Of a stretch of 47,548 bases of DNA, positions 359-29,671 are shown piece by piece. The stretch covers positions 506,911 to 554,458 of the forward strand of contig NZ_AOIQ01000006.1 of assembly GCF_000337515.1 (NCBI RefSeq), in the 5' to 3' direction. Made by a program: the position numbers and the translations under genes. The notes under the pieces are model-generated. The model had not been told where the DNA came from and did no database searches. It saw only the letters and a program-made list of their open reading frames with translations. Numbering within the stretch: position 1 is the first letter of the stretch; the number at the start of each line of letters is the position of its first letter. This DNA comes from Halovivax asiaticus JCM 14624 (GTDB lineage Archaea > Halobacteriota > Halobacteria > Halobacteriales > Natrialbaceae).

Positions 359-2152
359 ATGGCAGACTCCGCCGATATCACCTGGCGTGAAAAGGTCGAC
401 GCCCTCCTCCGCGTCGCCAGGTATCGTCCGATGTTTACCGCCGCCCTGACGGTCCTCGGTGCCTTCGTCGCCTTCCTCGAAGGGATCGGACTGAGTTTCA
501 TCTACCCGATCATGACCGTCGCGCAGAGCGATGGCGAACCGGAAGCCCAGGACGCCATCATGGAGGCGTTCCTGACGGCCTACGACGTCCTCAACATTCC
601 GTTCGAACTCGGGCCGCTGATCATCGGGATCAGTATCATCATGACGGTCCGGTTCACCTCCTCGTTCGTCGTCGCCTGGCTCAAGGCGATCCTGGGCAAG
701 CAGTACGAACAGGAGCTTCGAGCTGACGCGTTCGACGCAGCGCTCGACGCCGAAGTCAGCTACTTCGACGAAGAGGGATCTGACGACGTGCTGAACGCGA
801 TCATCACCGAGACCCGCTACTCCGGGAAGGTGATCGACAGCGGGGTTCTCACGATGCAGACGTTCGCGCTCGTCGGGATGTACCTCTCCATCATGGCGTA
901 CATCGCCCCGCGAATGACCGTCTTCGCGCTCGCGTTGCTTGGTGGAATTACGGTGTTGCTTCGGAAGATTCTCGAACCAGCGTTCACCGTCGGGTCTCGG
1001 GTGGCGGAGGCAAACCAAGAGGTTCAGCAGTCGGTGCAGGCGGGAACGCAGGGGATCCGCGATGTCAAGCTATTCGGCCTGGCCGACGAGGTGTACGAGC
1101 GGTTCCACAAGTCGATTCGACAGTATACCACGTCCTCGATCGATCTTGCACGGAACGAAGCCGCACTGATGAACTTCTACGATCTGGCCGCAGCCCTCTC
1201 ACTCTTCGTACTCATCTACGTCGGCTTTACGTACTCCGGCCTCTCGCTCGGTGCGCTCGGTATCTTCCTCTTCGCGATGTTCCGCCTCTCCCCGCTCGTC
1301 AGCCGATTGAACAGCCAGGTGTACAAGGTCGAGGGCTTTTTGGGTCACCTCGTTCGGACCTTCGACTTTCTAGATGACCTAGAGGAGGAACGGGAAGAGG
1401 ACGGTTCCACGTCCGTCGACGAGATTCCCGACGTGACGTTCGACAACGTGGAATTCGCGTACAACGAGGACGAACAGGTGCTACGAGACATCTCGTTCGA
1501 CGTCGAGAAGGGCGAGTTCATTGCGTTCGTCGGTCAATCGGGAGCGGGGAAATCGACCATCGTTTCGCTCGTTGCCCGAATGTACGACGCCGATTCGGGC
1601 GAGATTCGATCCGACGGAACGCCGATCGGAGAGTTCGATCTGGACGAGTGGCGCTCGCGAATCGCCTACGTACGCCAAAAGCCCTACATCTTCAACGATA
1701 CGCTGGAGCGGAACGTGACGATCGGGAACCGAGACGCGACGCGCGAGGACGTAAAGCGGGTTTGCAAGATTGCGAAGGTCGATCAGTTCGCCGACGAACT
1801 GCCGAACGGATACGACTCACAGCTCGGTGACGACGGCGTTCGACTGTCAGGTGGACAGCGCCAGCGCGTCGCGTTGGCTCGGGCGTTGTTGAAGGATGCT
1901 GACTTCCTAATCTTAGACGAGGCGACGAGCGACCTCGACTCGAACCTCGAACGGGAAGTGCAGGACGAAATCGAAGCGATGGATCGAGATTACGGGATGA
2001 TTGCGATCGCCCATCGACTCTCGACCGTGGAGAACGCCGACCGGATCTACACGGTTGATCGGGGAGAGATCATCGAGCGAGGGACCCACGACGAACTATT
2101 AGAGGATGATGGAGAGTACGCAGATCTCTACGCAATCCAATCTGCCGGCTGA
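359..2152 (+). CDS. ABC transporter with fused membrane and ATPase domains, candidate glycolipid flippase/exporter
   Basis: This 597-residue half-transporter has an N-terminal membrane domain (about residues 20-320, several hydrophobic helices) followed by a nucleotide-binding domain. Visible ATPase motifs are Walker A GQSGAGKST near residue 391, the signature LSGGQRQR near 495, Walker B FLILDEATSDLD near 520, and the switch histidine in IAHRLST near 549. The architecture is that of MsbA/PglK-type exporters, which work as dimers and move lipids or lipid-linked glycans out of the cytoplasm. It stands alone at the left edge of a glycosylation island, so flipping of a lipid-linked sugar is an inference from context; multidrug or lipid export remains possible. 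The ATG is supported by the TATA-like box about 35 nt upstream. Confidence 0.85.
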   Translation: MADSADITWREKVDALLRVARYRPMFTAALTVLGAFVAFLEGIGLSFIYPIMTVAQSDGEPEAQDAIMEAFLTAYDVLNIPFELGPLIIGISIIMTVRFTSSFVVAWLKAILGKQYEQELRADAFDAALDAEVSYFDEEGSDDVLNAIITETRYSGKVIDSGVLTMQTFALVGMYLSIMAYIAPRMTVFALALLGGITVLLRKILEPAFTVGSRVAEANQEVQQSVQAGTQGIRDVKLFGLADEVYERFHKSIRQYTTSSIDLARNEAALMNFYDLAAALSLFVLIYVGFTYSGLSLGALGIFLFAMFRLSPLVSRLNSQVYKVEGFLGHLVRTFDFLDDLEEEREEDGSTSVDEIPDVTFDNVEFAYNEDEQVLRDISFDVEKGEFIAFVGQSGAGKSTIVSLVARMYDADSGEIRSDGTPIGEFDLDEWRSRIAYVRQKPYIFNDTLERNVTIGNRDATREDVKRVCKIAKVDQFADELPNGYDSQLGDDGVRLSGGQRQRVALARALLKDADFLILDEATSDLDSNLEREVQDEIEAMDRDYGMIAIAHRLSTVENADRIYTVDRGEIIERGTHDELLEDDGEYADLYAIQSAG

Positions 2153-11980: not shown

Positions 11981-12706
11981 ATGAGCGAGACCGAGAACGG
12001 CGACAACCACGCAGTCGTCCTCGCCGCGGGAATGGGCCGGCGGTTGCAGCCGCTGACCGACGACACGCCCAAGGCCCTCCTCGAGGTCGGCGGGCAGGCG
12101 ATTCTGGGCCACGTTCTCGATCGATTCGCGGCCGCGAACTACGAGCGAGTCACGGTCGTCACCGGCCACGAGGCCACGCAGATCCGATCGTATTGCAAGG
12201 AGACGAACGGCCTCGACGTCGAGTGCGTCCACAGCGACGCCTATCGCGTGACCAACAACAGCTACTCGCTGTGGCTGGCTCGCGACCGCATTCGAGACGG
12301 GTTCACGCTCGTCAACGGCGACACGCTGTTCCCCGCAGACTGCCTCGAGCGACTGCGCGACGTGGACGACTCGGTACTGGTCGTCGATACGGACAATTCA
12401 CTGGGCGACGAAGAGATGAAGGTCACGATCGAGGACGGGCGCGTCACCGCCGTCGGGAAGGACCTCCCCGACGCGGATGGCGAGTACATCGGCCTCTGTA
12501 AGTTCGGGCCCGAAGACGCCGACGCGCTGGTTCGCCAGCTGGACGAGCTCGTCGAAACCGGCCGGACCGACGAGTGGTACGAGGCCGCCTTCGATCGCCT
12601 GGCCGCCGACCGACCGCTCGGCGTCGTCACCGTTCGGGACCGCTGGATCGAGATCGACGACCGAGAGGACCTACGTGCCGGCCGCCGGCTCTGGGGGGAG
12701 GCCTGA
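11981..12706 (+). CDS. LicC-like nucleotidyltransferase (phospho-alcohol or sugar cytidylyltransferase)
   Basis: A 241-residue nucleotidyltransferase with the N-terminal signature LAAGMGRRLQPLTDDTPKALLEVGG at residues 11-35 and the substrate region VTNNSYSLWLAR characteristic of the LicC/phosphocholine cytidylyltransferase branch (NNxYSL). Members activate phosphocholine, phosphosugars or other phospho-alcohols as CDP- or NDP-derivatives. The next gene, starting immediately after its TGA, encodes a CDP-glycerol glycerophosphotransferase-like protein, so a CDP-alcohol is the most likely product; this is inference. A TATA-like CTTTTG lies about 30 nt before the ATG. Confidence 0.8.
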   Translation: MSETENGDNHAVVLAAGMGRRLQPLTDDTPKALLEVGGQAILGHVLDRFAAANYERVTVVTGHEATQIRSYCKETNGLDVECVHSDAYRVTNNSYSLWLARDRIRDGFTLVNGDTLFPADCLERLRDVDDSVLVVDTDNSLGDEEMKVTIEDGRVTAVGKDLPDADGEYIGLCKFGPEDADALVRQLDELVETGRTDEWYEAAFDRLAADRPLGVVTVRDRWIEIDDREDLRAGRRLWGEA

Positions 12707-13912
12707 GTGGTCCTCCAGCGACTCGCCCGGAGTGTGCTATCGCTGGCGGCCCACCGGCTCGCACACGCCGTCCCGCGTGACGACTCGCTGTGGGCGTTCG
12801 GCTGCCGCGGGGGTGAGGGGTTCGAGGGCAACGCCAAGTATCTCTTCTTGCACGTCGCGACCCGGAGAGACGTTCGGGCGGTCTGGCTCTCGAAGAACGA
12901 GGAAACCGTCCGCGAGCTGCGCCGGTACGGGTTCGAGGCTCATCAGACCGACACCCACAGCGGGAAGCGCACTCTCCTTCGCGCGGGGACCGTCTTCGTC
13001 ACCGGGAGCGTGACGGGCGTTCCCCTGTGGCCGACCGGCGGCGCACGAGTGATCCAGCTCTGGCACGGCGTGCCGTTGAAGCGGATCGGCGCCGACGCAC
13101 CGAGATTCGACGGTCGCTCGCTCGTCGACCGGCTCGCGACGCTGTACACGTACCGACAGTTCGACGTCATTACCGTTACGGCCGCCCAACTGCAATCGTA
13201 TTTTGCTGACGCCTTTCGGACCGACGCCGACCGCCCCGTGACAGGCTACCCGCGAAACGACGCACTCTTCCGCCAAATTCCGGGCGAGCGAATCTGCCAG
13301 CCCGCCGACGTTCACGACGAGGTCGCCGAACTGAACGTCGCGTGGACGTACGCCTACGTCCCCACGTACCGCGAGGACGGGCGATCGCCCGCCGACCACA
13401 TCGACGTCGCGGCCCTGGACGCGTTCCTCGCCGAACGCGATGCGGCAATGCTGGTGAAGTTCCACCCGTTCGACGAGCCAGCCCTCGATCCGGACGAACT
13501 CGACCGCATCCACGTCCTCCCGTCCGAATTCGACCTCTATCCCGCGCTTCGACACGTCGACACACTGGTGACGGACTACTCGTCGATTTACGTCGACTAC
13601 CTGCTTACTGATCGCCCGGTCGCCTTCTACGCCGTCGATCGCGACAGGTATGCCGACGAGAGTGGCTTCTATCTCGAGTACGACGACGTCACGCCCGGCC
13701 CCGTGGCGACGACGTTCGACGAGTTACTCGACGCGCTCGACTCACTCCGAACGAACCCGGACGCGTACGCTGACGAGCGCGAGCGGGTCCGCGATCTCGT
13801 GTTCGACCACGCCGACGGTCACGCCGCCGAACGCGTCCGAAGGTACGCCGCAGAACCCGGCCAAACACACGTCGAACGCATCGAGACGGCGGTGGGTCAC
13901 TCGCCGAGGTAA
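12707..13912 (+). CDS. CDP-glycerol glycerophosphotransferase-like protein (TagB/TagF family)
   Basis: 401 residues, start GTG abutting the stop of the cytidylyltransferase gene. The C-terminal two-thirds match the Glyphos_transf (TagF/TagB) family: IQLWHGVPLKRIG near residue 120 corresponds to the catalytic HGTPxK motif, and VTDYSSIYVDYLLTDRPVAFY near 290 to the second conserved block with its SS and RP. In bacteria these enzymes transfer glycerol- or ribitol-phosphate from CDP-alcohols to lipid-linked acceptors when building teichoic acids. An N-terminal hydrophobic/amphipathic stretch could bind the membrane. In this island it probably decorates a glycan with a phosphodiester-linked unit. 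Its end overlaps the convergent gene by 16 nt. Confidence 0.82.
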   Translation: MVLQRLARSVLSLAAHRLAHAVPRDDSLWAFGCRGGEGFEGNAKYLFLHVATRRDVRAVWLSKNEETVRELRRYGFEAHQTDTHSGKRTLLRAGTVFVTGSVTGVPLWPTGGARVIQLWHGVPLKRIGADAPRFDGRSLVDRLATLYTYRQFDVITVTAAQLQSYFADAFRTDADRPVTGYPRNDALFRQIPGERICQPADVHDEVAELNVAWTYAYVPTYREDGRSPADHIDVAALDAFLAERDAAMLVKFHPFDEPALDPDELDRIHVLPSEFDLYPALRHVDTLVTDYSSIYVDYLLTDRPVAFYAVDRDRYADESGFYLEYDDVTPGPVATTFDELLDALDSLRTNPDAYADERERVRDLVFDHADGHAAERVRRYAAEPGQTHVERIETAVGHSPR

Positions 13913-19382: not shown

Positions 19383-20807
19383 ATGCGTTTCGGGCGCACG
19401 GCAGCGGCGTACTTCGCCTCGCAGGTCGCCCTCTCGCTCGCGGGCTTTCTGGCGACGTTCTTCATCGCTCGCCTGCTCGGTGCCGCGGCGCTCGGCACCT
19501 ACACGGTCGCCGTTGCCGTCCTCTTCTGGCTGAAGGTGCCGACGAACGGTATCACGGCCGCGATCAACAAACGGGTGAGCGAGGGGGTCGATCGCGGCGC
19601 CTACGTCGGAGGTGGCCTCGGGCTGTCGATAGCCGTCGCCGGAGCGATTTCAGTTCTCGTGCTCGCGTTCGGCGGGTACGTCGATCGATACGTGGGAGCC
19701 GGGGTGAGCGGGTTGATCGTCGTTCTCTATATTGCGAACGTCCTCTTCGACGGCGTCAGCGCCAGCCTGAAGGGACAGAAGAAGGTCGCCCACGCGGGCG
19801 GGGTGAGCGTCGTCGAACGGGTCGGCCGGCTGCTCGCGCAGGTCGGCGTGATCCTGCTCGGCTACGAGGTCGCCGGGCTGGTCGTCGGGCACGCCATCTC
19901 GCTGTTCGTCGCCGCGATGCTCGGCCTCGCCCTCTTCGATGTCCGGCCGCGGCTACCGACACGAGACCAGCTGGCCAGCCTGTTCGACTACGGCCGCTAC
20001 TCGTGGCTCGGCAGCTTACAATCCCAGATGTTCGGCTGGATGGACACGACGGTGCTGGCCTTCTTCGTCGCCACGTCGCTGATCGGTATCTACGAGGTCG
20101 CCTGGACGCTGGCGTCGACGCTCACCCTGATCAGTACCGCCGTCCAGCAGACGCTCTTTCCTGAACTGAGCGATCTGGGGACCGACGACCGACACGAGCG
20201 GATCCATCACTTCCTGAACGAGGGGCTGGTGTTTACCGGTATCTTCGTGATTCCTGGCCTCGTCGGCGCACTCATCCTCGGACCACGACTATTGCGCATC
20301 TACCGCCCCGAGTTCAGCCAGGGAGCGACGATTCTGGTGATCTTGATCGCCGCTCGCGGCGTCGCCGCGTTCGGCTCACAGTTCGTCTCCGGCATCAACG
20401 CGCTCGATCGACCGGACGTCGCCTTCACGATCAATGGCGCCTTCGTCCTGACGAACCTCTCGCTCAACGTCGTGCTGATCCGGGCCTTCGGCTGGTACGG
20501 CGCCGCGGTTGCGACCGCTCTCTCGGCCTGCCTGTTGACCGTTCTCGCGTACTACGGCCTGTCGGGACTGATCGGTCGCCCGTCGATTCCAGCCCGCGAA
20601 ATCGGTCTCCAGTTCGTCGCCGCACTGGCGATGGCACTCGTCATTTACGGCCTGCAGACGATCACACCGTCCACTCACTACACCACGGTCGGGCTCGTCG
20701 TCGCCGGTGCCGTCACGTACGTCGCGCTCCTCGTCGGGCTGTCTCCGCGGGTGAGAAAAAAGGCAGTCGCGTTGGTCCCGCTCTCGGATCGATTCGCACT
20801 GACGTGA
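19383..20807 (+). CDS. Wzx/AglR-like polysaccharide flippase (MATE/MOP superfamily)
   Basis: A 474-residue, very hydrophobic protein with about 12-14 membrane helices, starting with AAYFASQVALSLAGFLATFF as the first helix and having the polysaccharide-biosynthesis (PF01943/PF13440) pattern: paired N- and C-terminal helix bundles and a cytoplasmic loop with NALDRPDVAF. Such proteins flip lipid-linked sugars across the membrane; in Haloferax AglR has been linked to flipping dolichol-linked mannose. It is the second flippase candidate of this island, besides the ABC protein at the left edge. It is convergent with the fusion glycosyltransferase, 32 nt apart. Confidence 0.85.
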   Translation: MRFGRTAAAYFASQVALSLAGFLATFFIARLLGAAALGTYTVAVAVLFWLKVPTNGITAAINKRVSEGVDRGAYVGGGLGLSIAVAGAISVLVLAFGGYVDRYVGAGVSGLIVVLYIANVLFDGVSASLKGQKKVAHAGGVSVVERVGRLLAQVGVILLGYEVAGLVVGHAISLFVAAMLGLALFDVRPRLPTRDQLASLFDYGRYSWLGSLQSQMFGWMDTTVLAFFVATSLIGIYEVAWTLASTLTLISTAVQQTLFPELSDLGTDDRHERIHHFLNEGLVFTGIFVIPGLVGALILGPRLLRIYRPEFSQGATILVILIAARGVAAFGSQFVSGINALDRPDVAFTINGAFVLTNLSLNVVLIRAFGWYGAAVATALSACLLTVLAYYGLSGLIGRPSIPAREIGLQFVAALAMALVIYGLQTITPSTHYTTVGLVVAGAVTYVALLVGLSPRVRKKAVALVPLSDRFALT

Positions 20808-20839: not shown

Positions 20840-23152
20840 TCACTGCCGATCGACGAGGGACCGTTCGTCCCCATCAGCACGCTTCTTCACAGCCCCCTCG
20901 CCGAGTGCATGCAGGATCTGCCCATACCGATCGACGGCTGCGTCGAAATCGTATTCTCGCACGATCAACGACCGCCCGTCCTGGCTCATTCGGGGGAGCC
21001 GCCCACCGTCGAGCGCACTGACGATCGTGTCCGCGATCACGTCGCCCTCACGGTCGTCCATGTGCAATCCAGTCTCGCCATCGCGGACGACGTCAGGAAC
21101 GCCGGAGACCGGCGACGCGTACACGGGCGTCCCACACGCGAGTGACTCGAGGATCGTCGTCGGCAACCCCTCGGTCGGTTCCGACGGCATCACGAGCAAT
21201 CGGAGGGCGTTCAGCTCGCGCGGAACTTCGTCGTGGTCGACCCACCCGGTGACGACGACCGAACCGCGCTCGATCTCGTCGGCCAGCGCCGTCTCGACCT
21301 GCTCGCGCAGTGCCCCGTCGCCGACGAACCGAAACGTCACGTCGTCAGGGAGTTCCCTGGCGACCTGAATCAGCGTGTGAATCCCTTTCTCCTGATCGAG
21401 CCGGCCGACGAACCCGACGGTTCGATCACGCTCGTCGAACGGAGTCGTCGGACGGAACCGGTCGGTGTCGACGTATCGAGCACCGTTCGTGAACAGCGTG
21501 TCGCTGTCTCGCTCGAGTCCTAACTCCCGCGCCATACCGGGCGTGTAGGCGATGACAGCGTCGGCGGCGGAGTAACCGATCCGTTCCAGTACACGTACCG
21601 GCAGTGCGAGCGCGCGGGCCAAGGGGGCGGGAAACTGCCGTTCCCAGTTCAGTCTGAGTGAGCGCGGAACGTCGCCCCGTGGTTCCAGGGCGACGGTTTT
21701 CCCGATCGCACGGGCAAAGAGGATCGGCAGGAGGTACGACGTCGCGCCGAAGAACAGGACGATGTCCTCGTCGGTCCGGGCGAGTTCACGACACATGCGA
21801 AGTTGATTGGCCACGAATCGAACGGCGGCGACGGCAGCATTCGACTGACCGGCTCCTTTTTCGGTGAGTTCGACGACGTCGTATCGGTCGCGCATCGCCG
21901 ACTCGGTCGGCAGATCCGCAGTGATCAACGACACGGTCGCGTGGACCGAGAGCACGTCGAGTAACGTACGCGTCGCGGTTTCGCCCGGATCGCTCAATGG
22001 GTGGGTTACGACACACACACCCAGTCGCTCCCCGGTATCATCGTGAGCCGTGTTCGCCGTTTGTCGCCGATCGGGAGCCGCTGACTGTCGCCGGCCCGAT
22101 ACCGCTGACCGCTGCCGATCAGATGTCGACGACTGGCCTCGATCGGACGTCGACGGCCGTCGTCGATCGGGCACCGATGACAGTCGCTGCTCGGGCGTCG
22201 AAGGTTGCCGTCGATCAGAAGCCGACAACTGTGGCCGCCAGCGCGTGACCCCGTAGAGGTAGCCGAGACCGACGGCGACCGTGAGCACGAAGAGTGAGAG
22301 TAACTGCAGTGCGTTTTGCCGAACGGGTCCACCCACCATTCCCCGGATTCGGTCGGGGATCGATTCGACGACGAGGCTCCGGAGGAATTCACTCTCTTCG
22401 TCGGTCGAGTCCACCACCAGGACGGCCATCGCACGTTTCGAGTATCCTTGCCAAAATGCACGGCCGAGCAGCCAGCGAGGATCGGTTCGGTACTCGAACA
22501 CCTTGTGTTCGACGACGGCGTCGGGATCGTACCAGATGCCACGGCCGTATCGTCGGCGCATGCGCACACAGAGTTCCGCCTCTTCGCCCTGTAGGTTCGA
22601 ATCGCCCTTCCGCCCGCCGATAGCCGGATCGAATCCCCCGAGTTCGAGAAAGACGTCCCGGCGAAAGGAGATAGTAGAGCCGAACGTATTCCGAACCTCG
22701 TCAGGGCCGTCGGCGAAGCCGTCGTGAGTCTCCCCGACGAGCCAGTAGAACTCGGGCGGGAGAGCGGTTGGCTCCCCGGCCTCCCAGCGCGGTGCCATCC
22801 GTCCGCCAACGGCGATCGCGTCGTGGTCCTCGTAGGCCGCAACTAACCGCTCGACCCAGCGGCGGTCGGCCACGGCGTCGTCATCGATGAACGCGACGAC
22901 GTCACCCGTTGCGAGTTCAGCCCCCAAATTCCGGCTCCGGGTCAGGCCTCGGTTTTCGTCCGTGCAGTGGACGACGGCGTCGTTCAAGTCACCGGACTCC
23001 TCGATAATTCGGTCGTAGACGGCCGGTGCATTGTCGACGACGATGACGAGCTCGACGTCGTCGTACGTCTGGTCGAAGACGCTATCGACCGCCTCCCGAA
23101 AGTGCTCGTAGCTATCGAGCGCGTACGTACAGACGACGACCGAGACCTGCAT
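20840..23152 (-). CDS. Fusion glycosyltransferase: GT2 (AglG-like) - membrane anchor - repeat linker - GT4
   Basis: 770 residues in one intact frame. Residues 1 to about 308 are a GT2 transferase strongly similar to the separate gene at 10776-11696, with the acidic cluster in AFIDDDAV and the hydrophobic anchor LFVLTVAVGLGYLYGV at about 285-305. Residues about 312-368 are a repetitive Arg/Ser/Pro/Asp linker of seven octapeptides. From about 375 to the end lies a GT4 transferase with GFVGRLDQEKG and the donor motif EPTEGLPTTILESLACGTP. The GT4 part probably acts on the product of the GT2 part or a neighbouring step. With one anchor helix the two catalytic domains would lie on opposite membrane faces, which is unlikely, so the real topology needs two passes or a re-entrant segment. 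Confidence 0.85.
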   Translation of the reverse strand: MQVSVVVCTYALDSYEHFREAVDSVFDQTYDDVELVIVVDNAPAVYDRIIEESGDLNDAVVHCTDENRGLTRSRNLGAELATGDVVAFIDDDAVADRRWVERLVAAYEDHDAIAVGGRMAPRWEAGEPTALPPEFYWLVGETHDGFADGPDEVRNTFGSTISFRRDVFLELGGFDPAIGGRKGDSNLQGEEAELCVRMRRRYGRGIWYDPDAVVEHKVFEYRTDPRWLLGRAFWQGYSKRAMAVLVVDSTDEESEFLRSLVVESIPDRIRGMVGGPVRQNALQLLSLFVLTVAVGLGYLYGVTRWRPQLSASDRRQPSTPEQRLSSVPDRRRPSTSDRGQSSTSDRQRSAVSGRRQSAAPDRRQTANTAHDDTGERLGVCVVTHPLSDPGETATRTLLDVLSVHATVSLITADLPTESAMRDRYDVVELTEKGAGQSNAAVAAVRFVANQLRMCRELARTDEDIVLFFGATSYLLPILFARAIGKTVALEPRGDVPRSLRLNWERQFPAPLARALALPVRVLERIGYSAADAVIAYTPGMARELGLERDSDTLFTNGARYVDTDRFRPTTPFDERDRTVGFVGRLDQEKGIHTLIQVARELPDDVTFRFVGDGALREQVETALADEIERGSVVVTGWVDHDEVPRELNALRLLVMPSEPTEGLPTTILESLACGTPVYASPVSGVPDVVRDGETGLHMDDREGDVIADTIVSALDGGRLPRMSQDGRSLIVREYDFDAAVDRYGQILHALGEGAVKKRADGDERSLVDRQ
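22068..22235 (-). repeat. Seven imperfect 24-bp tandem repeats coding for the octapeptide linker
   Basis: Seven contiguous 24-bp units (22068, 22092, 22116, 22140, 22164, 22188, 22212) share a pattern beginning CGATCGG/CGATCAG on the plus strand. On the coding strand each gives an octapeptide close to DRRxSSxx (for example DRRRPSTS, DRGQSSTS, DRRQSAAP). The period is a multiple of 3, so unit number can change without breaking the frame. Confidence 0.85.
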
Positions 23153-23286: not shown

Positions 23287-26166
23287 ATGAGTAGCGAGAC
23301 TGCAGACGCCCGAGCCCTCCAGGCCGAGGACGTCGTCGCGTTCGTCGAACGCTACGGTCACCTCGCCGCAGTTGGCCTCCTCATGGTCTTCATGCTGTGG
23401 ACGCGCCTGCTCAACTTCGGCGTGTTCAGAAACCGAGACGAGGTCGCGTTTTCGGGTATCGACTCCTGGTACCACTGGCGAACGACAGAATGGACGGCGG
23501 AGAACTTCCCGTGGACGATGCCGTACGAGGTGTACACGGGCTTCCCCGAGGGGAACTACGTCGGACAGTTCGGGACGCTGTTCGACCAGCTCGTTGCAAC
23601 CGTGGCGATGCTCATCGGGCTGGGCAGTCCGACACAGTCGGACGTCTACCTCGCCGCCCTGCTCGTCGTCCCGATCCTCGCCGCGCTCGTTGCAATCCCG
23701 GTCTACCTGATCACGACGAAGGTGAGCGACGGGAATCGCCTCGCTGGAATCATCGCCGTCGCTATTCTGGCGCTCTCGCCGGGGTCGTTCATGGGTCGGA
23801 CGACGACTGGCTCCTTCGACCACACCGTCGCCGAGGTGCTGTTCATGGCGGTCGCCGTCCTCGCATTGGTCGTCGCCCTGCGGACGGCCGAACGTGACAA
23901 GCCGATCTGGGAGCTCATCAAAGCGACGGAGTACGACCCGCTCAAACCGAGTGCGACGTACGCGGCGCTCGCCGGGGTCGCGATCAGCCTCTATCTGTGG
24001 ACCTGGCCACCGGGCGTCGTCTTCGTCGGCATCCTCGGCGTCTTCTTCGCCGTCCAGCTCACCCTCGACTTCGTCCGCGGCGTCTCGCCAGATCACGTCG
24101 CGTTCGTCGGTGTGATCAGCATGGCGGTTCCGACGATATTCAGTCTCCTGATGGCCGACGTCTATACGTTCAGTAACGTTACGGATTTTGCACTTCTCCA
24201 GCCGGCGGCCGCCGCACTTGTCGCGGTCGGCTGTGTCTTCATGGCCTGGCTCGCCCGTGAATGGGACGCACGCGATATCGACCGCGCGTTCTACCCGGTC
24301 GCGATCATCGGACTGCTGGTCGCCGGACTGGCCGTCCTCTCGGTCGTTCTGCCGGAACTCTACAACACGCTCATCACCAACCTCACCTCCCGGCTGCTGC
24401 CCCTCAATCCCTCCACTACCGGACTCACGGTGGGGGAGGTCAAGCCACCGGACTCGTTCGTCGATCAGGCCTGGGCCGAGTTCCGGATGGGGCTGTACCT
24501 CTTCATCCTGGGCCTCATCATGATCGTAGCCCGTTCGCTCACGGGGAAGCGCTACCGCGCCGAGCACACCCTCGTGATCGTGTGGGGGCTGTTCCTGGCG
24601 AGTATGGCCGCCACCCAGCTTCGCTTCTGGTACTACTTCATCCTACCAGTCGCGATCCTCTCGGGGTACACCATCGGACAGCTAATCGACCTGATCGATC
24701 TGCGGCCGGTCGACTCGATCCACGACATAAAGGGCTATCAGGTGCTGTCGATCCTGCTCGTCCTGATGATCGTGCTCGTGCCGTTCGCTCCCGCGCTCTC
24801 GAGCGCGACGGCCGTCGACGTCGGGAAGGGCGCCGATCAGGACTACAACTCGGAGATTTGGGAGGAGCCGAACGCGTACATGCAGGAGAACACCCCCGAG
24901 CCAGGGAACCTCTACGGTGCCGGTAACGCCTCCGAACTCGATTACTTCGGCAGCTACGAGATCCCACCGAATCAGAACTACGACTACCCCGACGGCGCCT
25001 ACGGCGTGATGTCGTGGTGGGACTACGGCCACCTGATAACCACGCAGGGTGAACGTATCCCGCACGCAAATCCGTTCCAGCAGCACGCCCAGAGCGCTTC
25101 CGCGTACCTGCAGGCGCCGAGCGAAGAGAAGGCGAACGAGATACTGGACGCCATCAACGCGGGAATGGACCCACGACTCGACGCGAACGGTAACGTCACC
25201 GTCGACGCACCGGACGACGTCGACAACGACATGCCGTACGTGATGATCGACTACCAGATGGCCTCGACGAAGTTCCATGCCATCAGTCAGTGGACCGGTC
25301 CCGACTTCCGGGAGTACGTCGGTCAGTCGGAACTGAACCTGGGGCAAAATCAGTCCCAGCAGGCACTCGTGCCGAGCGAAGATTACGAGGACACGCAGCT
25401 GGCGAGGCTATATCTTCAGGACACCAACGGTCTGGAACACTACCGACTGATTCACGAAGCCGATCGCTACGCCTACGTGGGCGGTGCCATAGAGGGCCGA
25501 CAGTTCAACCCATTCACCGGCTTCGATCAGGGGACCACTTGGAACGAATCACGGAGCACGGCCGCACAGGTCCAGCAGGCGAACATACAGAACTCGTTGC
25601 TCCAAGGAACCTTCTACGAGGGCCAGGTGGAGTCGACGGTCAAGAGCTTCGAACGAGTCGAGGGCGCCACGCTCTCGGGCACGGCCGAGCAGGTCGACAC
25701 CGCGAACGCGACCGCCATCGTCGCGCTGGACCTCGAGACGAACACGGGCCGAACGTTCACCTACAGCCAGACCGCCGAAGTCGCCGACGACGGCAGCTTC
25801 GAGGTCACCGTCCCGTATGCGACCGAGGAATCGCTCGGTCCGGACGACGGCTACACCGACAGCGCGGTGGAGGCGAACGGCTCCTACGAGGTCTACGTCG
25901 GCTCCGATGAGGACTTCTATCAGGCGAACGCGACCGTCGACGAACCGTCAATCTACGACGGCGAGACGGTCTCCGTCAGCGGGTTCGAGGAGACCGATCT
26001 CGGCGGCGGGAACGAGAGCGACGGAGGAAACGAGAGCGACGACGGAGGAAGCGACGCAAACGACGACACCGCCCCCGCGAACGACGGCGGTAGCGACGAC
26101 GATAGCACGTCGACGAGCGACGACACGACCACACACGTCGGCGGCGCACGCGTCGCCGGCGCCTGA
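23287..26166 (+). CDS. aglB: Oligosaccharyltransferase AglB (STT3 family)
   Basis: A 959-residue archaeal oligosaccharyltransferase, which transfers the finished glycan from dolichyl phosphate to Asn in Asn-X-Ser/Thr on the outer face of the membrane. The first half has about a dozen membrane helices. The first external loop holds the metal-binding FSGIDSWYHWR (Asp at about residue 58). The catalytic signature SWWDYG lies at residues 576-581, starting the soluble C-terminal domain. The last 55 or so residues are a Gly/Asn/Asp/Ser/Thr-rich acidic tail, a likely disordered surface extension. It is divergent from the fusion GT gene, sharing a 134-nt promoter region, and is followed by DUF368 in the same direction. 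Confidence 0.96.
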   Translation: MSSETADARALQAEDVVAFVERYGHLAAVGLLMVFMLWTRLLNFGVFRNRDEVAFSGIDSWYHWRTTEWTAENFPWTMPYEVYTGFPEGNYVGQFGTLFDQLVATVAMLIGLGSPTQSDVYLAALLVVPILAALVAIPVYLITTKVSDGNRLAGIIAVAILALSPGSFMGRTTTGSFDHTVAEVLFMAVAVLALVVALRTAERDKPIWELIKATEYDPLKPSATYAALAGVAISLYLWTWPPGVVFVGILGVFFAVQLTLDFVRGVSPDHVAFVGVISMAVPTIFSLLMADVYTFSNVTDFALLQPAAAALVAVGCVFMAWLAREWDARDIDRAFYPVAIIGLLVAGLAVLSVVLPELYNTLITNLTSRLLPLNPSTTGLTVGEVKPPDSFVDQAWAEFRMGLYLFILGLIMIVARSLTGKRYRAEHTLVIVWGLFLASMAATQLRFWYYFILPVAILSGYTIGQLIDLIDLRPVDSIHDIKGYQVLSILLVLMIVLVPFAPALSSATAVDVGKGADQDYNSEIWEEPNAYMQENTPEPGNLYGAGNASELDYFGSYEIPPNQNYDYPDGAYGVMSWWDYGHLITTQGERIPHANPFQQHAQSASAYLQAPSEEKANEILDAINAGMDPRLDANGNVTVDAPDDVDNDMPYVMIDYQMASTKFHAISQWTGPDFREYVGQSELNLGQNQSQQALVPSEDYEDTQLARLYLQDTNGLEHYRLIHEADRYAYVGGAIEGRQFNPFTGFDQGTTWNESRSTAAQVQQANIQNSLLQGTFYEGQVESTVKSFERVEGATLSGTAEQVDTANATAIVALDLETNTGRTFTYSQTAEVADDGSFEVTVPYATEESLGPDDGYTDSAVEANGSYEVYVGSDEDFYQANATVDEPSIYDGETVSVSGFEETDLGGGNESDGGNESDDGGSDANDDTAPANDGGSDDDSTSTSDDTTTHVGGARVAGA

Positions 26167-26229
26167 TCGACCGCAGCCGGCGCGGTCGAAGCGAACGCTT
26201 TTCCGGCCATCACCTGTACCATCTCGGCA

Positions 26230-27162
26230 ATGGCGACACGACTGCGGACGTTTCTCACCGGGTTCGCGATGGGGATGGCCGACGCCGTCCCGGGCGTCTC
26301 GGGTGGGACGATCGCCCTGATTGCAGGCGTCTACGACCGGATGATCGCCGCCATTACGGCGATCGACCCACGGGTGCTCCACCGGGTGCGAACGATCCAT
26401 CGCGCGGAGACGCGACACAAACTACGGATCGAACTGTTCGCAATGGATCTGCCCTTCCTCCTCACGCTCGGGAGTGGCGCGATCCTGGCCGTCTTGCTCC
26501 TCGCGAACGCGATGCACTTTCTGACAGCGACCTATCCGGTCCCAACGTACGGCTTCTTCACGGGGTTGATCGCCGCGAGCGCGATCGTCCTCTACGGAGA
26601 AGTCGACGTCCGAACGGCGAGGCGGCTCGCCGTCGCGGGACTCGGAATCGGACTGGCGGTGGCAATTACGGCGCTCTCCGGGGCGGGCATGCCCCACACG
26701 CTGCCGATCGTCTTCGTGACGGGCGCGATCGCCATCTGTGCGATGGTACTTCCGGGGGTTTCCGGTTCCTTCCTCTTGCTCTTGCTGGGCCAGTACGAAT
26801 TCATGACCGGAACGTTGAGCGATGCGATCGACGCCCTCACCGGCGCCGGGAGCGGCGTGAGCCTGGCGGAGACGCTGACGGTCGTCGCCGTGTTCGTGAC
26901 TGGAGCGGTCGTCGGACTGTTCTCGATGGCCCACCTCGTCGAACGAGCGCTAACCCACTACCGCGAGGCGACGATGACGTTTCTGGTGAGTTTGATGGTC
27001 GGGTCGCTCGGAATGCCCCTCGGCCGCATCGGGACGAATCTCGGTGGCTCACCGACGAACGCACCGGTCGCGGCAGGACTGACGCTCGTCGGAGGCGCCG
27101 CGATCGTCCTTCTCGTGGATCGGTACGCCGTCCCCCAGAATGGGACGACGACAGCGGCGTGA
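26230..27162 (+). CDS. DUF368 membrane protein, PopT-type polyprenyl-phosphate transporter candidate
   Basis: 310 residues with about eight membrane helices. The motif PGVSGGT at residues 21-27 and a second PGVSGSF near residue 175 form the internal repeat typical of DUF368 (PF04018). Bacterial DUF368 proteins (PopT) were identified, with DedA proteins, as undecaprenyl-phosphate translocases that return the carrier lipid to the cytoplasmic face. Sitting 63 nt behind aglB, whose reaction releases dolichyl (pyro)phosphate outside, this one is a good candidate for the archaeal equivalent (inference). A T-rich box ACGCTTTTCC about 35 nt before the ATG may be its own promoter. Confidence 0.85.
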   Translation: MATRLRTFLTGFAMGMADAVPGVSGGTIALIAGVYDRMIAAITAIDPRVLHRVRTIHRAETRHKLRIELFAMDLPFLLTLGSGAILAVLLLANAMHFLTATYPVPTYGFFTGLIAASAIVLYGEVDVRTARRLAVAGLGIGLAVAITALSGAGMPHTLPIVFVTGAIAICAMVLPGVSGSFLLLLLGQYEFMTGTLSDAIDALTGAGSGVSLAETLTVVAVFVTGAVVGLFSMAHLVERALTHYREATMTFLVSLMVGSLGMPLGRIGTNLGGSPTNAPVAAGLTLVGGAAIVLLVDRYAVPQNGTTTAA

Positions 27163-27514: not shown

Positions 27515-29671
27515 TCAGTTCTTCAAAAATCGAGGATAGCCGAGATCCATATTCCACTCCAAACCGGACTCGGTCAAAACTGGTGTTTCCGTCCAGGTGA
27601 CGTATTTCTGAAGTTGGTCGGTCGTCACCTCCATTCGATAGTCGGTCATTGGGAGGAGGAATACTTCGTCGATCGACTCGATTGTCGGCGACGTAACCGA
27701 CCCGATTTGGAATTCTTTGGCCGGATAGTGACGGAATGAAATGTCAAAAAGATCGGTTGAATTATCAGATTCGACCGTTACGACCGTTGGCGCTCCCCCG
27801 TCAGATTGAGCAATGTCTGTCGACCCGTCACCGACGATGAGATACTGGTCGCCGAGAACAGTCCACTCGCTCACCATTTCCAGCGCGCCACGCAGCGGGA
27901 AACCAAGGTTTAGTAGGCGAGCAATCGACGCTCCTGACTCTACCGCGTGCTCGTTGATGATGTCTCCCAGCGTCGCAACGCCCCCGAACGCACCCCGCCG
28001 AGAGAGCGCAAGTCCCTGTTCGTAGGAGTGACAGGCATTCAGGAAGAACACACCCAGGTCGACGGAATCGAGTGACCGAACGTCGAGATCTCCGTCGGAG
28101 CACTCGAGTCCATCGTCCGTCGCGTGGCCGATATAATGGAGAAAATCGTATCCACCAGTCTCGAGAAGGTCGGCGAACTCGTCCGTCGTCACGCCAAACT
28201 CGGATGTTACGTCGAATGGCAGAAGGTCGCGTGTTCCGTAGGTCTCGTCGAGCAAGTCGTGTTCGTCCAGCATTCGTGCATCGTTACAAACCACGAGAAT
28301 GTCGATATGCTGCGTGCGTGATTCCCTGTCGAGTTGGTTTCGGTACGCTTCGATCGTCGCTTTCGAACCCGATTTCGGTGCGAGGTCACCGAACCACGCG
28401 TGTTCGATCGACTCGTCCGTCACGTCCGGTTCGACGACTGGGAACTTCGACGAGGTGCCGGATCGAGACACCTGTGATCGAGTCGTCGCTCTCGTGAACG
28501 CCGACGTTGTGGCTGGCGAGTGTGACGCGGACCGAACGTCGGCTCCGTCCACGGAGAGAGGGGTTCTGGCGGAAGCCGGTTCCGAAAGCGAGGTTTCGAT
28601 CGACGTCCGTGTCCCCCCTGTCGTCCGCACGATGCCAAGTTCGTTCACGATGTAAGGGAGTAATTCGATACTCTCGGGTTCGGGCGGAACGTGGGCGGTC
28701 AGTGGCCACCGTGGGAGATACGGCTCGATGAGTTCGTGTGGGGTCGAGAGATACGTTTGAATCCGCCGAGAAAGCGAGCGGTCGTACAACTCTGCGAGGT
28801 CCCACGAGAGTGCTGATTCCACCTGTTCGCGCTCGTGTAGCTTGTAGCGGTAGATGCCTTCGGTCCTGACGAGACAGTCGAGGAAGAAGACATGTTGGAG
28901 AATCCGAGAGAGATCATCCTCGAACGAACGGGAACCACCCAGTTCGAACGACTGATCGCCGGCCAGGAGCATCGGCTTTTCCCCTTCGACAACTGTGGCC
29001 CCGAGGTAAAACGAGAGCGGTGCGACCGGGAACAGGTACTCGAGTTCGGCGGGAATCTCGATGGTGACGTCGGTGTCAATCGGCTCGTTCTCAGTATCGA
29101 TCGAAAGGTTCGTTCCGAGTTCGATTCGGGGTGGGTGACCCCGAAGTGTCGGCCACGACCGCTCAGGGCTATCGGTTTTCAGTGCGGATGTGGCCGCCGA
29201 AATTGCGCGCATCATTGCCGTCGGTTCGGCCGGAGTTTCGATCCGGCCGGTCGGTCGTTCGTGGAGCGATCGGGCACCGACGTCGATCTCGACAGACTGG
29301 TCGAACTCGAACCGAACGGACTTCATGCCGAGTTCGATGCGGCCCGACGAAGGAATCCGACAGTAGAGCTTCATCGGCCCGTCTAGCCCGACAAACTGAA
29401 GATCATCCGTGAGTTCGTACGTTTCGTTGTCGTTTAACTTGGTAACCGATCGGCCGGTGTGATCGTGAACGTTGACGAGATACCGCTGGTCGAAGAGGAG
29501 CGATGACGTCTCGATCCGAGTGGCCGTGTCAACTGGGAAACAAAAGTTATCCGTCGAGACCGCACGCGGGGACAGGTCTCGATCGGTCCGTATCGATAGC
29601 TGGCGCTGCTCGTTCGAGTCGAACAGCCGCAACCCGTGGGGATCTGTAAGGGGAGATATCTCGATCGCCAT
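27515..29671 (-). CDS. CHAT-domain (caspase/separase-like) protein
   Basis: 718 residues. The C-terminal third has the CHAT protease pattern: a hydrophobic strand and histidine in FLHYIGHATDDG (H516) and, 31 residues later, the cysteine in VFFLNACHSYEQG (C547), followed by a conserved glycine-rich FGGVATLGDI. Both residues of the His/Cys dyad are intact. The first 400 or so residues form an unnamed haloarchaeal region with APLSFYLGATV; residues about 345-425 are Ser/Thr-rich and may be a flexible linker. No signal peptide is seen, so it is probably cytoplasmic. CHAT proteases are cysteine endopeptidases used in signalling, cell death and defence; the target here is unknown. The nearby 45-residue protein is the only obvious partner. 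Confidence 0.78.
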   Translation of the reverse strand: MAIEISPLTDPHGLRLFDSNEQRQLSIRTDRDLSPRAVSTDNFCFPVDTATRIETSSLLFDQRYLVNVHDHTGRSVTKLNDNETYELTDDLQFVGLDGPMKLYCRIPSSGRIELGMKSVRFEFDQSVEIDVGARSLHERPTGRIETPAEPTAMMRAISAATSALKTDSPERSWPTLRGHPPRIELGTNLSIDTENEPIDTDVTIEIPAELEYLFPVAPLSFYLGATVVEGEKPMLLAGDQSFELGGSRSFEDDLSRILQHVFFLDCLVRTEGIYRYKLHEREQVESALSWDLAELYDRSLSRRIQTYLSTPHELIEPYLPRWPLTAHVPPEPESIELLPYIVNELGIVRTTGGTRTSIETSLSEPASARTPLSVDGADVRSASHSPATTSAFTRATTRSQVSRSGTSSKFPVVEPDVTDESIEHAWFGDLAPKSGSKATIEAYRNQLDRESRTQHIDILVVCNDARMLDEHDLLDETYGTRDLLPFDVTSEFGVTTDEFADLLETGGYDFLHYIGHATDDGLECSDGDLDVRSLDSVDLGVFFLNACHSYEQGLALSRRGAFGGVATLGDIINEHAVESGASIARLLNLGFPLRGALEMVSEWTVLGDQYLIVGDGSTDIAQSDGGAPTVVTVESDNSTDLFDISFRHYPAKEFQIGSVTSPTIESIDEVFLLPMTDYRMEVTTDQLQKYVTWTETPVLTESGLEWNMDLGYPRFLKN

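Follow-up and report, generated by a model that had tools for sequence, protein, structure and literature searches.

Besides the DUF368 proteins, members of the DedA/VTT family are the other known polyprenyl-phosphate translocases. In archaeal N-glycosylation, AglB moves lipid-linked glycan onto Asn at the outer face. DUF368 proteins recycle the lipid carrier C55-P in V. cholerae and S. aureus, and bacterial DUF368 mutants accumulate bare C55-P at the surface (Sit et al., 2022; PMC9876793). The same study mentions dolichol phosphate, describes bacterial DedA and DUF368 proteins as active in different pH ranges, and reports that, in a V. cholerae vca0040 mutant, HVO_RS12060 of Haloferax volcanii gives back growth under alkaline conditions at least in part (PMC9876793). 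Haloarchaea assemble their N-glycans on dolichol phosphate (PMC8674786, PMC4476749), and two membrane proteins of Haloferax volcanii, AglR and Agl15, have been proposed as lipid flippases (PMC3871713). No paper was found that assigns a protein to the inward return of used lipid carrier in archaeal N-glycosylation, and the literature yielded no dolichyl-phosphate transport measurement for a DUF368 member. Nor did the literature searched include a paper treating aglB and DUF368 together, an earlier mention by Roney and Rudner (PopT/UptA) being possible.

The window analyzed here is a stretch of 47,548 nt from the genome of Halovivax asiaticus JCM 14624, in which a DUF368 gene stands 63 nt behind aglB on the same strand. 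Each gene is present in one copy in the H. asiaticus genome. The features of the pair are as follows.

23287-26166, forward strand: AglB, archaeal oligosaccharyltransferase (STT3 family), 959 aa; TIGR04154 at 790 bits (cut-off 450 bits), PF02516, PF22627, PF18079.
26192-26202, forward strand: promoter-like element CGAACGCTTTT (BRE/TATA-like), 31 nt upstream of the DUF368 start codon.
26230-27162, forward strand: DUF368/PF04018 membrane protein, candidate dolichyl-phosphate (polyprenyl-phosphate) translocase, 310 aa; PF04018 at 219.5 bits.
26290-26304, forward strand: first PGVSG motif, residues 21-25 of DUF368, at a helix break between helices 2-19 and 25-31 of the model.
26752-26766, forward strand: second PGVSG motif, residues 175-179 of DUF368, at a helix break between helices 158-173 and 179-185 of the model.

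The first-pass annotation, made from the DNA letters, had placed DUF368 next to aglB with both PGVSG motifs intact, and both the coordinates and the motifs proved correct. The match to PF04018, the family formerly called DUF368 and now named 'VCA0040-like', spans residues 14-261 and covers most of the domain (profile positions 1-226 of 246), its score of 219.5 bits standing against a gathering score of 26. Scores against the NCBIfam equivalog models for the V. cholerae type (NF052564, 193.6 bits) and the S. aureus type (NF052563, 102.3 bits) both fall below the cut-off of 400, and the DUF368 protein of Haloferax elongans likewise stays under both cut-offs (187.4 and 88.9 bits, respectively). 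By profile matching, the window protein is a family member according to Pfam that lies outside the stricter NCBIfam equivalogs. When 55 archaeal and bacterial relatives are aligned, 32 columns are invariant across both domains, the window protein included, and among the invariant residues are P21, G22, S24 and G25 of the first motif and P175, G176, S178 and G179 of the second. An AlphaFold2 model built from this alignment is helical and confident (pLDDT 91.3, pTM 0.86), and alignment and model together place two PGVSG-type motifs at helix breaks of a helical membrane protein. A search of PDB sequences gave no match at E<=1, and Foldseek with the model reached a best E of 0.3. VIA-align gave best Z scores of 7.8 for BbZIP and 4.8 for the C55-PP phosphatase BacA, values within the range of common arrangements; no kinship to any solved structure is claimed.

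Across the class Halobacteria, profile searches found DUF368 in 289 of 292 genomes and AglB in 289 of 292. The pair was counted as linked when DUF368 lay on the aglB strand no more than 3 kb downstream, and by this definition the genes are linked in 119 of the 155 halobacterial genomes examined, or about 70% after weighting for sampling. The first set consisted of 76 genomes with both genes among the matches listed, 68 of them linked; as high-scoring matches are over-represented in this set, 80 genomes drawn at random from the remaining 216 were added, of which 51 were linked, 28 were unlinked and one was without a strong AglB. Some unlinked pairs may be split by contig ends (e.g., G161, G261), so that 70% could be slightly low. 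Linked pairs occur in 8 of 11 family codes (by hand tally over both sets: f1, 16; f2, 13; f3, 9; f4, 60; f6, 5; f7, 3; f8, 9; f9, 4). Two single-copy genes in a genome of about 3.5 Mb would be expected by our own arithmetic to be linked by chance in about 0.04% of genomes, and the observed frequency is so far above this that the adjacency is not due to chance. DUF368 is therefore conserved next to aglB across Halobacteria, a strong linkage that is apparently ancestral. The first-pass annotation had named lack of conserved linkage as evidence that would count against its proposal, and the survey, once run, found the opposite. Few genomes carry only one of the genes: AglB is present and DUF368 absent in G021, and DUF368 is present without a full AglB match in G225 and G117. 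Two fragmented genomes of the same order (G186 and G205, f4) are without both AglB and DUF368, which reflects either the loss of both linked genes together or a gap in the assembly.

The junction between the genes takes different forms. The aglB stop and DUF368 start codons share 1 nt (TAATG or TGATG) in L028, L029, L031 and L035, the genes overlap by 4 nt (ATGA) in L036 and L039, and the gap is zero in L003. Gaps of 38-157 nt are found in the window's family, f7 and f9, and in Haloferax elongans (L004) the two genes are separated by an aglM of opposite orientation. At all 12 loci with an intergenic gap in the window's family, f7 and f9, a TTTT box occurs at -29 to -31 from the start codon, an arrangement for which shuffled sequence gives a chance of about 0.5% per locus; the 12 loci are related and hence not independent. 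The box suggests that DUF368 in the window may have a leaderless transcript of its own, and with such an element at -31 the window pair need not be one transcript. Same-direction adjacency, as first annotated, holds as to strand, but the shared operon that it might imply in the window is weakened by this conserved promoter-like box. A fusion of AglB and DUF368, considered on account of long open frames in G133 and G223, was not seen, the G133 matches lying in different reading frames. Where the genes overlap by 1-4 bases, deletion of aglB could disturb DUF368, and some published aglB-deletion phenotypes in species with the overlap might be mixed.

In a tree of 58 proteins, most unlinked DUF368 copies form one nested clade of 16 (support 100/99), and linked copies occupy basal and scattered positions; the linked label requires seven changes on the tree, versus 18.4 in shuffles. 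One genome (G202) has two DUF368 copies, one of the linked kind and one of the unlinked kind. At L060, L061 and L071, the opposite-strand gene that comes after DUF368 in linked relatives stands immediately behind aglB, and these three genomes still encode DUF368 elsewhere. A search by tblastn for a decayed DUF368 behind aglB in the unlinked genomes found no such remnant. We infer, direction included, that the linked DUF368 was probably displaced by the unlinked copy rather than lost.

In a phylum-wide sample of 295 genomes, DUF368 is absent from 205, including most of those outside Halobacteria, and present in 90, of which 38 are non-halobacterial. All 38 of these methanogen-side genomes also have AglB-type matches, and DUF368 was adjacent to AglB in none of them, although in f30 the two genes are 12-15 kb apart in four of five genomes. 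DUF368 is thus not linked to aglB throughout the archaea, and the first-pass wording, which spoke of 'the archaeal protein' returning the carrier, was too broad. In methanogens, a recurrent neighbor of DUF368 is a gene homologous to methanogenesis marker 12 (TIGR03281); at L072, L079, L080, L081, L085 and L089 it follows 4-118 nt after DUF368 on the same strand, a conserved pairing. Separately, a DUF368 gene from a Nanohaloarchaeota MAG (L014:7511-8488), whose genome has an STT3 homologue elsewhere, groups with halobacterial f9 sequences (99/93), for which gene transfer from a host or contamination is possible.

In the window, aglB and DUF368 close a surface-glycan cluster that comprises an ABC exporter at its far end, sugar epimerase-type genes, several glycosyltransferases, a flippase and an AglG-like protein. 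The members that bear most directly on the lipid carrier are as follows.

359-2152, forward strand: ABC exporter whose membrane and ATPase domains are fused, an alternative outward lipid-glycan flippase; PF00005 at 111 bits, PF00664 at 64.5 bits.
19383-20807, forward strand: Wzx/MurJ-like polysaccharide flippase that may flip glycan-charged lipid outward; PF13440 at 57.8 bits, PF03023, PF01943.
20840-23152, reverse strand: GT2-GT4 fusion protein with an AglG-like glucuronosyltransferase part (GT2), divergent from aglB; NF041394 at 486 bits (residues 1-305), PF00534 (residues 563-720).

An AglG-like neighbor is present at 18 of 23 linked loci. The GT2 and GT4 parts of the window protein are joined via a low-complexity linker, and a 770-aa homologue of the joined protein occurs at a locus of the same genus (L020); AglG-like proteins at other linked loci are about 310-390 aa long. 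At 11981-13912 (forward strand), a nucleotidyltransferase is followed immediately by a protein resembling CDP-glycerol:poly(glycerophosphate) glycerophosphotransferase (PF04464, 215 bits), a teichoic-acid-type enzyme within a haloarchaeal glycan cluster. Beyond DUF368, at 27515-29671 (reverse strand), lies a gene for a 718-aa protein that matches no Pfam or NCBIfam model; judged by eye, its C-terminal part (HYIGHA...FLNACHS) is similar to CHAT-type proteases. Homologues of this protein stand behind DUF368 at nine of nine linked loci of the window's family and come directly after aglB where DUF368 is gone.

Read from family names, the stretch would hold charging, outward flipping, transfer and the proposed return of the carrier together. 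Glycosyltransferases would charge dolichyl phosphate inside the cell, the Wzx-like or ABC flippase would carry the charged lipid out, AglB would pass the glycan to Asn and leave bare dolichyl phosphate outside, and DUF368 would return it from the outer to the inner leaflet. Since haloarchaea use dolichol monophosphate-linked glycans, no pyrophosphatase step is needed after AglB, whose product could serve DUF368 directly as substrate. On the best reading, the window DUF368 is a haloarchaeal PopT-type polyprenyl-phosphate translocase that probably returns the dolichyl phosphate released by AglB, a reading to which we assign a probability of about 0.7. We infer its substrate, direction of transport, energy source and status as a main route. 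With DUF368 directly behind aglB in about 70% of sampled species, it is the leading candidate for dolichyl phosphate recycling in salt-loving archaea. We are much less sure of a role as main or sole recycler, because DedA/VTT proteins were found in 97 of 97 halobacteria and most non-halobacterial genomes of the sample are without DUF368. A reading in which DUF368 serves AglB as the dedicated and principal translocase for the return of dolichyl phosphate, coproduced with it through coupled frames in several lineages, is doubtful; if true, an adjacent gene pair would close the carrier cycle of archaeal N-glycosylation. The conserved pair supplies a named candidate in genetically tractable halophiles.

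A rival reading makes DUF368 a general polyprenyl-phosphate translocase that would serve all dolichyl-phosphate pathways (N-glycans, Dol-P-mannose-type donors and exopolysaccharide); its adjacency to aglB would be an ancient arrangement and no sign of dedication to AglB. We rate it a little short of an even chance. The unlinked clade of 16 is found in f1 and f3 genomes that have kept AglB, the unlinked copy adjoins another GT2 glycosyltransferase in all seven f1 loci of this clade where the context is shared, and methanogen DUF368 genes adjoin other genes; the overlapping stop and start codons with aglB and the linkage in eight families, however, suggest selection for the pair. More tentative, though possible, is a reading in which dolichyl phosphate is recycled mainly by DedA/VTT proteins and DUF368 is a conditional backup, for instance at alkaline pH or high sodium as in bacteria. 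The universal presence of PF09335 in the halobacteria checked, with three matches in the H. asiaticus genome, fits such a division of labor, as do the different pH ranges of the bacterial families (PMC9876793) and the many archaea that have AglB without DUF368, but against it stand the near-universal presence of DUF368 in Halobacteria and its linkage to aglB. The first-pass annotation had called DUF368 a strong recycler candidate; linkage and family role support this in part, and the DedA/VTT proteins temper it. The probabilities given to these readings overlap because a general translocase and a DedA backup relationship are both compatible with the best explanation.

An outward flippase for glycan-charged dolichyl phosphate, in place of a return route, would also explain why DUF368 shares a locus with charging and transfer enzymes. 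This is most improbable, given that the Wzx/MurJ-like protein and the ABC exporter are already in the cluster and that it is bare C55-P that builds up at the surface of bacterial DUF368 mutants (PMC9876793). It is also very unlikely that halobacterial DUF368 transports something unrelated, its adjacency being inherited clustering without function: the scores below the cut-offs for characterized equivalogs would allow it, and no transport assay of the window protein was found in the literature, but the H. volcanii member gives partial cross-domain complementation (PMC9876793) and linkage with aglB is far above chance.

Compared with known systems, the function of the family, which the first-pass annotation had described correctly as the return of polyprenyl phosphate in bacteria, is already known, and its archaeal link had already been raised in print through the partial replacement of VCA0040 by the H. 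volcanii homologue (PMC9876793), but within the literature searched the linkage to aglB is mentioned neither there nor elsewhere and is the new part. AglR and Agl15 are, like the DUF368 candidate, membrane proteins of the N-glycosylation system, but are proposed as outward carriers of sugar-charged dolichyl phosphate rather than inward carriers of the bare lipid. DedA/UptA proteins (PF09335, VTT domain) have the same proposed job, return of polyprenyl phosphate, and belong to a different family; the H. asiaticus matches lie on contigs other than that of the window. VCA0040/PopT and the window DUF368 share the Pfam family over almost the whole length and both PGVSG motifs, the window protein leaning towards the V. 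cholerae type, with 194 bits against 102 for the S. aureus type. They differ in that the window protein belongs to a host without peptidoglycan, in which the carrier would be dolichyl phosphate, is encoded by a gene linked to an oligosaccharyltransferase and falls under both NCBIfam equivalog cut-offs. HVO_RS12060 is a haloarchaeal DUF368 like that of the window and may be an aglB-linked copy. In the congener H. elongans, a DUF368 gene stands behind aglB and aglM (L004); the window DUF368, with 46% identity to the H. elongans protein, follows directly after aglB.
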